From a virus, in the IMG/VR virus record IMGVR_UViG_3300027896_000171, positions 1-28,098 of that record: a DNA stretch of 28,098 nt. One strand, written 5' to 3'. The stretch's first letter is position 1; the number at the start of each line of letters is the position of its first letter. Below the pieces are notes generated by a model, which was not told where the DNA came from, did no database searches, and saw only the letters and a program-made list of their open reading frames with translations. The position numbers were made by a program, and so were the translations under genes. This document shows, piece by piece, positions 14,132-28,098 of this stretch.

Positions 14132-14506
14132 TTATTTTTTCTTGTAGCCTTTAAATGGCTTTACCAAACTTGTAGTGTTTGTATCCTCAGGTTCTTTACT
14201 CTTAGAATATGGTACGACAGTTTTTTGATCTGATGGTATAGTCTTTGTAGCTGAAACATACATATTGTATTCTTCTTCAGTGTAGGGATGAACGGTGTTA
14301 TATTTCTCAACAAAACTAGCATTGTCCATGTCTACTGCGTCTTGACTCTTACCATCTGCCATTGCCATAGCCATCCATAATCGGTTCATGTGATACACAC
14401 GATCATAACCACCAACATCACGAACTCGCATAATACCTTGTGTAGCCTGTTCATGATGTTTGGCAATAGTACCTTCACTTTCAGTTAAAAATTCATGTGC
14501 TCTCAT
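14132..14506 (-). CDS. phage protein with MRAxEF N-terminus and FKGYKKK C-terminus
   Basis: 124 residues beginning MRAHEFLTESEGT and ending KPFKGYKKK. The middle is helical with AMAMADGKSQ and a MDMDNASFVEKYNTVHPYTEEEYNMY segment. It shares both terminal motifs with its upstream neighbour, although the middles differ. Function unknown; position among late genes suggests a virion or assembly protein. ATG 14506 overlaps the previous stop (ATGA). Confidence 0.7.
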   Translation of the reverse strand: MRAHEFLTESEGTIAKHHEQATQGIMRVRDVGGYDRVYHMNRLWMAMAMADGKSQDAVDMDNASFVEKYNTVHPYTEEEYNMYVSATKTIPSDQKTVVPYSKSKEPEDTNTTSLVKPFKGYKKK

Positions 14507-14907
14507 TTTCTCTTGTATCCTTTGAATGCTTTAAACGGACTTGTTTTGACTACATCAGGCATTTCTTGACTTGCCATAGTGGCAATTTGAATAGCATCAC
14601 TACCGGGTAATCCCATGGATTGTAATGCATCACGAATGTATTCCCCTGTATGTGGGTCATAACTAACTACAAATTCATTTTCACCAAAAATTTTATCTTC
14701 TTCGAAGGGAGGAACACCGTCTTCTTTGCGCTGTTTAGCGCCTTTTGCCCCGGCGACTGCAACACCAAAACGATATTGCAAATATGGGTCTTGATTTTTA
14801 AGTGCTGGTATTTTCCACGCACCAGGTAATGCTAACGCAATATCTTGTTGCAGACTGCCAGTATGTCCGAGACTGACTGATTCATTGATGAATTCTTTTG
14901 CTCTCAT
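14503..14907 (-). CDS. phage protein with MRAxEF N-terminus and FKGYKRK C-terminus
   Basis: 134 residues beginning MRAKEFINESVSLG and ending SPFKAFKGYKRK. The middle includes FGVAVAGAKGAKQRKEDGVPPF and a segment ending SQEMPDVVKTSP. The paired terminal motifs with gene 14132-14506 suggest a common localisation or processing signal. ATG 14907 overlaps the previous stop (TAATG). No enzyme motif recognised. Confidence 0.7.
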   Translation of the reverse strand: MRAKEFINESVSLGHTGSLQQDIALALPGAWKIPALKNQDPYLQYRFGVAVAGAKGAKQRKEDGVPPFEEDKIFGENEFVVSYDPHTGEYIRDALQSMGLPGSDAIQIATMASQEMPDVVKTSPFKAFKGYKRK

Positions 14908-25928: not shown

Positions 25929-26936
25929 TTAGAAACGAACACGCAAACCTGCGCCCAATGTTTCACCATTTGAAAGTGCAGTTACAGTTGTGCGACCATA
26001 TGTAACATATGCATCAGTCTTTTTGCTCATTGGGTAATCATAACCAACTGAATACTCTTTGAACTTACCAACTGTTAAGCCTTTTGCATCTGTGTTAGCA
26101 TAAGCTGCCAAGATGTTACCTGGACCGAATGGAACAGTTGCACTTGTATGCCATGTCTTGTTATGTATGTTTGCTGAATCAGAATCAGCAGTTTGGTATG
26201 TTGCAAATACTTTAGCAACTTTAGCATCATAACTTGCACCTGCACCTTTAGCAGTACTACCTTGGTTAGCACCATAGATGTTAGTTTGGAAACTACCACT
26301 GCTATTTGCTTCTGTACGCTGCCAGTATGCTGTCAATCCTAAGTTACCTTTGAAGTAAAGAGCATTAGCACCAGTGTTCTGACCGCCACCTGTCTTGCTA
26401 GTCATAGCAGAAACAGTTGCACCAGCAATAGTAGGAGCAGTATATGCTACGCTATTGTCCCATGCTGTATCGTTGTATACACGAGTAGATGTGTTGCCAG
26501 TGTTACCGAAGTAAGTAGCATGCCATAATGGACCGTATGAACCACTATCACCATATGCGTTGAACAAGATTGTTGGCAAGAAACTTGGGTTGCTTTGACG
26601 ACCCAATGTTACAGTACCTGCATTAGTGCCTAAACCAACAAATGCTGAACGAGCAAATGTGTTAACGGTTGAACCACCTAATGTAGCACCAGTACCTTCG
26701 TTCAAGAAGCTAGACAATTCAAATACTGTCTTAGCACCATTGCCCAAATCTTCTGAACCTTTGACACCGATATTGCTGGTTGTCATACCACCGCTGGTGA
26801 AGCTAGTAGTTGCTGTTGATGTACCTGGAGCCTTAGTGCTAGATAAGCCAGCATCCATAGTACCAAAAATACCTACATCAGCTTGTGCTAAACCTACAGA
26901 GGCTAGTAGCGCAAATAAAACTGAGAATTTTTTCAT
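25929..26936 (-). CDS. outer-membrane porin of betaproteobacterial type
   Basis: 335 residues. The signal peptide MKKFSVLFALLASVGLAQA is followed by DVGIFGTMDAGLSS, the first strand of general porins. SNIGVKGSEDLGNGAKTVFELSS is the hallmark second/third strand region of Burkholderiales porins. Alternating strands continue, and the protein ends in a terminal phenylalanine (GAGLRVRF) that the BAM machinery recognises. Length is typical for a 16-strand trimeric porin. It would be exported and inserted in the host outer membrane, so the phage may alter permeability or block rival phages. Intact, with ribosome site AAGGAAAT and its own terminator. Confidence 0.9.
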   Translation of the reverse strand: MKKFSVLFALLASVGLAQADVGIFGTMDAGLSSTKAPGTSTATTSFTSGGMTTSNIGVKGSEDLGNGAKTVFELSSFLNEGTGATLGGSTVNTFARSAFVGLGTNAGTVTLGRQSNPSFLPTILFNAYGDSGSYGPLWHATYFGNTGNTSTRVYNDTAWDNSVAYTAPTIAGATVSAMTSKTGGGQNTGANALYFKGNLGLTAYWQRTEANSSGSFQTNIYGANQGSTAKGAGASYDAKVAKVFATYQTADSDSANIHNKTWHTSATVPFGPGNILAAYANTDAKGLTVGKFKEYSVGYDYPMSKKTDAYVTYGRTTVTALSNGETLGAGLRVRF

Positions 26937-27148: not shown

Positions 27149-27814
27149 ATGTTTTTACCATATGTTTACATCATGAAGCATCGCACAACAGGAAAATTTT
27201 ATATAGGAATGAGGTCGGCTAATACAGTAGTGGCTGAACAAGACCTTGGAATTTGCTATTTTACTTCATCTAAGCATGTTAAAAATAATTTTTCAGAATA
27301 TGATTCTGAAATTCTAGCATATTTCGTTGACCAAATCTCGGCGTTTGAGTTTGAAAATAATCTCATAAAAGAGTATTGGGGTAACCCACTCTTACTTAAC
27401 AGGCATTATCAGAAGTCAATGTCCAAGTTTTCAATGTCTGGATCTAAACGAGGTGATTTAGCCGAATATAATCGAAAAGCAAAAACCAAACCAAAAGAAG
27501 AACGAACTTACACTTGTGTCATTTGTAATGGTATTTTTATTAGATTGGAATTTTGCCATCATCCAATAAAAGAAGAATTTGTATGCGGGCATAAATGCAA
27601 CGGGATACGCAGTGGTAAAAAATCTCTGGGTAAACCAAACTTAAAACTACGAGAATCATTAAAAGGGCGTACTGCATGGAATAAGGGCTTGCCAAATCCA
27701 ACTGCGGCTAAGAATGGAAAGAAAAGTGCAGCAAAACAATCAGCGACAGTTACCGGTAGAAAAAGAAAATATTTGCCGGATGGGACATGGACATATGAAT
27801 ATCCAAACAAATAG
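27149..27814 (+). CDS. GIY-YIG homing endonuclease, free-standing
   Basis: 221 residues and the only plus-strand gene. YVYIMKH (5-11) and KFYIGMR (about 17-23) are the two halves of the GIY-YIG core, with ENNLIKEYWGNP carrying the conserved glutamate and helix. A zinc-finger-like region (CVIC, then CHH and CGHKC) and a NUMOD3-like GRTAWNKGLPNPTAAKNGKKS give DNA binding. It lies head-on against the tmRNA segment, its stop codon inside a hairpin shared with that RNA's 3' flank. It probably homes near the tmRNA locus. Confidence 0.85.
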   Translation: MFLPYVYIMKHRTTGKFYIGMRSANTVVAEQDLGICYFTSSKHVKNNFSEYDSEILAYFVDQISAFEFENNLIKEYWGNPLLLNRHYQKSMSKFSMSGSKRGDLAEYNRKAKTKPKEERTYTCVICNGIFIRLEFCHHPIKEEFVCGHKCNGIRSGKKSLGKPNLKLRESLKGRTAWNKGLPNPTAAKNGKKSAAKQSATVTGRKRKYLPDGTWTYEYPNK

Positions 27815-27833
27815 GAGCATAAGCTCCTATTTG
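27808..27833. terminator. bidirectional hairpin between GIY-YIG gene and tmRNA segment
   Basis: 11-bp perfect stem (CAAATAGGAGC / GCTCCTATTTG) with a 4-base loop, covering the GIY-YIG stop codon. U-tracts are weak on both sides; likely a terminator or RNA-end stabiliser for both transcripts. Confidence 0.65.
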
Positions 27834-27839
27834 GGTTAT

Positions 27840-28048
27840 TCTTTGACAAGGGTACCACCCTCGCTATCAAGCGTTAACGGCTTGAAGGAATTGTGAATCG
27901 TTTGCGATTACTTTTTGTGTGTCTTCGGCTGAGAAATCCTACTGTCAAGACTAGCTTGCTTCAGATCATACCCCCAATCCTAACGGCTTCTACATTGCCG
28001 GACTGTCCAGTCAAATACTGCACCGACTGTCGAATCTAAGACCGGCCC
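27840..28048 (-). ncRNA. ssrA: tmRNA (ssrA) coding segment; probably the coding half of a permuted two-piece tmRNA
   Basis: Minus strand, reading 28048 to about 27840. GGGCCGG (28048-28042) is a candidate 5' acceptor strand. GATTCGAC (28036-28029) matches the conserved GGAUUCGAC near the tmRNA 5' end. AATCG-CAAA-CGATT is the conserved hairpin spanning the resume codon (GUCG-CAAA-CGAC in E. coli). The GCA resume codon (27905-27903) opens a tag ANDSQFLQAVNA, ended by TGA TAG (27869-27864). TTGACA (27948-27943) and TGTCAA (27848-27843) can pair as P5 around the tag, and AGTCTT/AAGACA may form part of a pseudoknot. No T-loop or CCA end is found downstream, so the acceptor half probably lies beyond 28098, as in permuted tmRNAs of alpha- and some betaproteobacteria. 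With SmpB it would rescue stalled ribosomes. Confidence 0.85.
27867..27905 (-). other. tmRNA tag reading frame (ANDSQFLQAVNA, then TGA TAG)
   Basis: Twelve encoded residues from resume codon GCA. The start AND is the common tag beginning (ANDENYALAA in E. coli); the end AVNA departs from the usual LAA. Confidence 0.85.
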
Positions 28049-28098
28049 ATCAAAAGCACATTAGTTCTCAGTGACCGATGCCGTTAAATAACACCGAT
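28049..28098. other. right edge: presumed intervening sequence upstream of tmRNA coding half
   Basis: Fifty bases without an open frame. No complement of GGGCCGG and no T-arm is visible, so any acceptor half must lie further out. Confidence 0.35.

Follow-up and report, generated by a model that had tools for sequence, protein, structure and literature searches.

A circularly permuted tmRNA gene at the end of a T4-like phage contig: its coding half and its relatives in uncultured phages

What kind of tmRNA gene lies at the very end of a T4-like phage contig, where the sequence offers a tag frame and stops and no tRNA-like 3′ end? The window, which is the whole stretch of DNA analysed here, comprises positions 1 to 28,098 of IMG/VR virus record IMGVR_UViG_3300027896_000171 (28,098 nucleotides). 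On its minus strand, positions 28048 to 27809 make up the coding half of a two-piece tmRNA of the circularly permuted type, with tag, tandem stops and terminator. We are highly confident that a T4-like phage carries a permuted tmRNA gene here and that the window holds its 3′ gene segment, which specifies the coding RNA.

Read down the minus strand from 28098, the elements follow in the order IVS remnant, GGGCCGG, GATTCGAC, CGGC/GCCG helix, GCA frame, TGA TAG, hairpin and terminator-like hairpin. GGGCCGG (28042..28048, −) is the 5′ strand of the acceptor stem, with which the mature coding RNA would start; L106/L119 and L049 carry the same strand, with 7/7 pairs to CCGGTCC. The GATTCGAC element of the tRNA-like domain, which an earlier note on this DNA had placed on the minus strand, was found at 28036-28029, and its TCGA is invariant in an alignment of 45 relatives. 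The CGGC/GCCG helix (27984..28000, −) is invariant or nearly so in these relatives and belongs to the family core motif, which reads GTAGAAGCCGTTAGGATTGGGG in the window (27993-27972, −). Further down lies a stem, GG(A)UUGGG/CUCAGCC (27927..27980, −), that covaries in the relatives and carries an optional insert of about 39 nt in place of its loop. The hairpin insert of the window is 90-92% identical to those of L006, L067, L118 and L008, and its predicted fold was no more stable than that of shuffled sequences (z 0.34).

The tag reading frame starts at the resume codon GCA and comprises 12 codons (GCA AAC GAT..GCT; 27870..27905, −) that encode ANDSQFLQAVNA, the same tag as in L002. Directly after it we read the tandem stops TGA TAG (27864..27869, −), so that the proposed frame beginning with A-N-D and closed by two stops is indeed present. 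A post-tag hairpin, AGGGU-GGU-ACCCU (27849..27861, −), is predicted by folding, and relatives show a hairpin at the same place. The terminator-like hairpin AAATAGGAGC-TTAT-GCTCCTATTT (27809..27832, −) has a folding energy of −14.2 kcal/mol (z −4.6, 0/200 shuffles). Two pairings suggested earlier did not hold up. The string of the AATCG-CAAA-CGATT resume hairpin occurs at 27909-27896 (−), but the AATCG/CGATT pairing is not kept among the relatives and was dropped as a conserved hairpin; what is conserved around the resume site in the 45 aligned relatives is the frame GCA AAY GAY. Likewise, TTGACA and TGTCAA are found at 27948-27943 and 27848-27843 (−), but their pairing as P5 is not conserved and was rejected, since TTGACA sits in the optional hairpin insert, which most relatives lack.

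Relatives were gathered by a DNA pattern, and 45 coding halves were aligned without the window and without L002, its near-twin; the covariance model R1 was built from this alignment. Pattern-matching loci that were excluded as family members are L010, L011, L014, L016-L018, L022, L024-L026, L028 and L032, which have the same repeatedly seen frame (..TLGTWIASN..) in common, as well as L015 and L023, apparently coding matches too. R1 gave a single match in the window, at 27838-28048(−), with 118.2 bits and an E value of 2.2e-26, which puts the observation far outside what chance would give. Of the Rfam covariance models that the earlier note had proposed, beta_tmRNA (RF01850) reached 24.7 bits under relaxed settings (E 1.6e-5), under its cut-off of 84. 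RF04321 (tmRNA_permuted) scored 13 bits on the window (gathering score 47), and ARAGORN and Rfam at gathering thresholds reported nothing there. The Rfam cut-off and ARAGORN miss this gene because the contig stops 50 nt upstream inside the IVS, leaving the acceptor half off the contig. Complete relatives exceed the RF04321 cut-off, with 73-134 bits.

The last 50 nt of the window (28049..28098, −) are the 3′ part of the IVS, the segment between acceptor and coding halves, and are cut by the contig end. They share 92% identity with the L031 IVS, which is preceded by CACCTCCACCA and a T-arm; by comparison with this relative, CCA should be expected about 16 nt past base 28098. The IVS end in the window, CTAATGTGCTTTTGAT, would make 13 bp with the IVS start of L031 (−15.3 kcal/mol), and the window IVS is of the ORF-less type. 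From 28048 downwards, 48 nt are 100% identical to L106/L119. The acceptor strand of these two relatives, CCGGTCC, pairs fully with GGGCCGG, so the partner strand that the earlier note told readers to look for exists in relatives of the window, not in the window itself, where only the G3 of the G3-U70 pair is visible. The order acceptor half, IVS, coding half seen in the relatives, together with the match of the 50 nt to the L031 IVS, bears out the claim of a phage-encoded, permuted, two-piece gene. As was also stated, T-arm and CCA do not follow the tag: none occurs in the 650 bases downstream on the minus strand. With its acceptor half outside the window, the gene might lack parts or be interrupted past the end of the contig.

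The relatives show how the two halves fit. Full pairing of the acceptor stem was seen in the 121 genes for which both halves are present; nine strand combinations occur, among them GGGCCTG/CAGGTCC, GGGGATG/CATCTCC, GGGGGTG/CACCTCC and GGGCCGG/CCGGTCC, and the G3-U70 alanine identity pair is present in 121/121. Candidates were picked partly for pairing, and therefore the evidence lies in the covariation of the acceptor stem and not in the percentage. The coding-half hairpin covaries in the relatives as well.

The tag of the window ends in Asn-Ala, and the Ala-Ala end that characterizes the canonical ssrA degron is absent. The same Asn-Ala end occurs in 17 loci including the window (LLAANA, LVAANA, LQAVNA), with L115 as one further locus outside the 17; 98 loci end in Ala-Ala. 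In this comparison L153 duplicates L002. For ClpXP of E. coli, no part of the tag matters more than the C-terminal Ala-Ala, and KM goes up when the penultimate Ala is changed (PMC7652416). Because Asn-Ala replaces Ala-Ala, reduced recognition by ClpXP is predicted, by analogy with E. coli, for the -NA tags, with a weaker hand-over to the protease and hence rescue with slower or altered proteolysis.

Could the RNA instead be decayed or inhibitory and inactive in trans-translation, comparable to the tmRNA of mycobacteriophage DS6A, which lacks a tag? The acceptor half that is unseen in the window, the unusual -NA end and the unusual T-loop GGCAGUG of many family members would all agree with this. 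However, tag frame, double stop, GGG.. acceptor strand and terminator are all intact in the window, whereas DS6A has no tag frame, and the relatives, although much diverged, have retained resume frame, tag and G3-U70. We therefore regard an inactive RNA as quite improbable and prefer a permuted tmRNA that probably works.

A piece of ssrA from the host chromosome, joined to phage DNA at a prophage attachment site or by mis-assembly, is also conceivable, given that ssrA is a frequent integration site and that a Burkholderiales-like porin gene is found in the same window. Against this origin speaks the distribution of the family. At least 119 IMG/VR stretches have the core motif GNAGAAGCCGTTAGGRTTGRRG, the contigs reaching 353 kb, and the tmRNA of L036, L038 and L052 has phage tRNA genes as neighbours, whereas a pattern search of 84,980 prokaryote species genomes returned no occurrence. 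Moreover, in L002, a viral contig of 249,606 bases, tmRNA and neighbour gene stand together again, so that the same junction recurs in another phage. Searches of 50,697 phage records with the window half, the L002 coding half and the L052 gene gave no match, nor did the L002 coding half match any of 72,556 plasmids; these absences are based on exact pattern or blastn, which diverged bacterial relatives could escape. The absence of the core motif from bacterial genomes lends no support to a bacterial origin of the clade, and within the databases searched the family appears to occur only in uncultured phages. A host fragment thus seems even less probable than an inactive RNA. As for a standard one-piece tmRNA, whose 5′ part resembles the coding half, the terminator-like hairpin after the tag with no 3′ half in the following 650 bases, the permuted order of all complete relatives examined and the lack of any RF00023 match in the window make it next to impossible, and the permuted gene stands.

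The porin gene itself (25929-26936, −) encodes a Gram-negative porin (Porin_4, E 1e-40) that is closest to Burkholderiales porins and has no counterpart in sequenced phages. Plasmid records hold Burkholderiales porins with 30-38% identity to it, and a search of genome contigs for the host by means of the porin found no relative; a betaproteobacterial host, suggested by these similarities, is only a guess. Short DNA matches near the ends of the porin gene were seen in L013 and L031. In another phage with a tmRNA of the family, L004, the tRNA array includes a GOLLD RNA (203 bits; L004:7073-7534, −).

We compared the window gene with its relatives block by block and found that most blocks have a different closest relative. 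The IVS block is closest to L031 (92%), the 5′ tRNA-like half to L106/L119 (100%), the hairpin insert to L006/L067/L118 (92%), and the tag (95%) as well as the terminator with the neighbour gene (94%) to L002, while the core block is common to many relatives. These comparisons suggest that the tmRNA gene evolves through block-wise recombination. The neighbour is the opposing endonuclease that the earlier note had described downstream: an ORF at 27149..27814 (+) resembling free-standing homing endonucleases (phrog_314, E 2.9e-9). The 3′ end of this endonuclease-like gene also adjoins the tmRNA in L003/5/7 and L008, and perhaps it drives the shuffling of blocks.

In some relatives, the IVS holds a protein gene. 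All 13 unique IVSs of at least 121 nt are filled by an ORF that starts at most 30 nt from CCA and stops at most 16 nt from GGG (L101, L002, L036, L080, L038, L052, L069, L105, L074, L065, L057, L133 and L126), a state that dinucleotide shuffles reach in 0-3% each. A Shine-Dalgarno-like site lies within the first 14 nt in 11 of the 13; mostly, the ORF-bearing IVSs have such a site straight after CCA and a stop codon in their last bases. IVSs of 80-119 nt are for the most part ORF-less and their short ORFs possibly due to chance, and up to an IVS length of about 100 nt a nested ORF cannot clearly be told from chance. In L044, L047, L051, L054, L060, L071, L072, L118 and others, the IVS measures 24 nt and resembles a hairpin that continues the acceptor stem. 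These members read ACCT, without encoding the last A of CCA, which would need completing after processing.

The proteins encoded in the long IVSs differ. L052 and L069 carry a DUF2061 protein (E 4e-20 and 4e-21) with a dN of 0.14 against a dS of 1.38, which indicates selection on the protein, and the IVS of L065 encodes a DUF6356 protein. The nested ORF of L002 matched no Pfam or PHROG family; its sequence gives an 'ADP-ribosyltransferase-like' impression, for which we make no claim. Homologues of this protein are encoded away from the family tmRNA in L154-L158 and L160-L163. In addition, a different permuted tmRNA at L159:1426-2023 (alpha_tmRNA, 73 bits) has a homologue inside its IVS, so that this slot has apparently been occupied repeatedly. 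Similar leaders (MRAHEFLTES, MRAKEFINES, MRIKELTES) begin two ORFs of the window (14132-14506 and 14503-14907, −) and the nested ORFs of L002 and L036; they are perhaps a capsid-targeting or prohead-protease signal.

In ORF-bearing and other IVSs alike, the two IVS ends pair mutually and in register (0/2000 end permutations were as good), and in those with an ORF the Shine-Dalgarno site falls in the paired 5′ strand. Its position in the paired strand makes a coupling of processing and translation plausible. On balance, we lean towards a model of a phage-only family in which the IVS would be an expression slot with exchangeable protein genes, the Shine-Dalgarno site in the extended acceptor stem would couple processing to translation of the cargo, and a sub-clade including the window would add the -NA tag for rescue with less ClpXP proteolysis. 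A survey of 97,179 tmRNA sequences recorded a tRNA as well as a repeat within an IVS, and the parts of that survey considered here do not mention a protein gene there (PMC11915505). The open-access literature we searched contained no other report, an absence that is no proof.

By homology with the complete relatives, the gene order is acceptor half (T-arm, CCA), IVS and coding half (GGG.., GATTCGAC, core, resume codon, tag, stops, terminator). As in known permuted tmRNAs, tRNA-processing enzymes of the host would cut out the IVS, leaving two RNAs joined by base pairing, and the host alanyl-tRNA synthetase would recognize the conserved G3-U70 pair and charge the molecule. A search for SmpB (PF01668) in the records of 11 large relatives, which may be incomplete, gave no match, and hence the host protein would be used for delivery to stalled ribosomes. 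The ribosome would then resume at GCA and append the tag. Control of ribosome rescue during infection, which the earlier note had proposed, would be the putative function.

The window very probably holds a member of the permuted tmRNAs whose acceptor half lies off the contig. The family shares with Rfam tmRNA_permuted (RF04321), beta_tmRNA (RF01850) and alpha_tmRNA (RF01849) the order acceptor, IVS, coding half, the tRNA-like domain, the GCA resume codon and the AND.. tag. It differs from them in its own core motif that is absent from prokaryote genomes, the frequent GGCAGUG T-loop, the optional hairpin insert, the -NA tags of a sub-clade and the protein genes in some IVSs. A two-piece tmRNA in a phage is as such already known: Methylophilales phage Melnitz and related aquatic phages likewise carry a permuted one in a T4-like background, and 53 phage tmRNAs were called two-piece in that study (PMC9004378). 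However, the tmRNA of Melnitz clusters with those of Alphaproteobacteria and has a glutamine riboswitch. Huge phages likewise carry tmRNAs; SmpB was reported there, in contrast to the 11 relatives here, and the sections of that report considered here describe neither permuted forms nor IVS genes (PMC7162821). What goes beyond the phage tmRNAs described so far is the block-wise mosaicism, the -NA tag sub-clade to which the window belongs and the protein-filled IVSs of its relatives. A clade that combines a core of its own, this tag end and genes in the IVS is undescribed in the searchable literature. The family forms a large clade of phage tmRNAs, with none found in bacteria and many members missed by ARAGORN. 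The alanine-charging signal persists everywhere in the family, whereas the tag of one sub-clade has departed from the usual degron; this makes it possible to test why phages carry RNAs for ribosome rescue.
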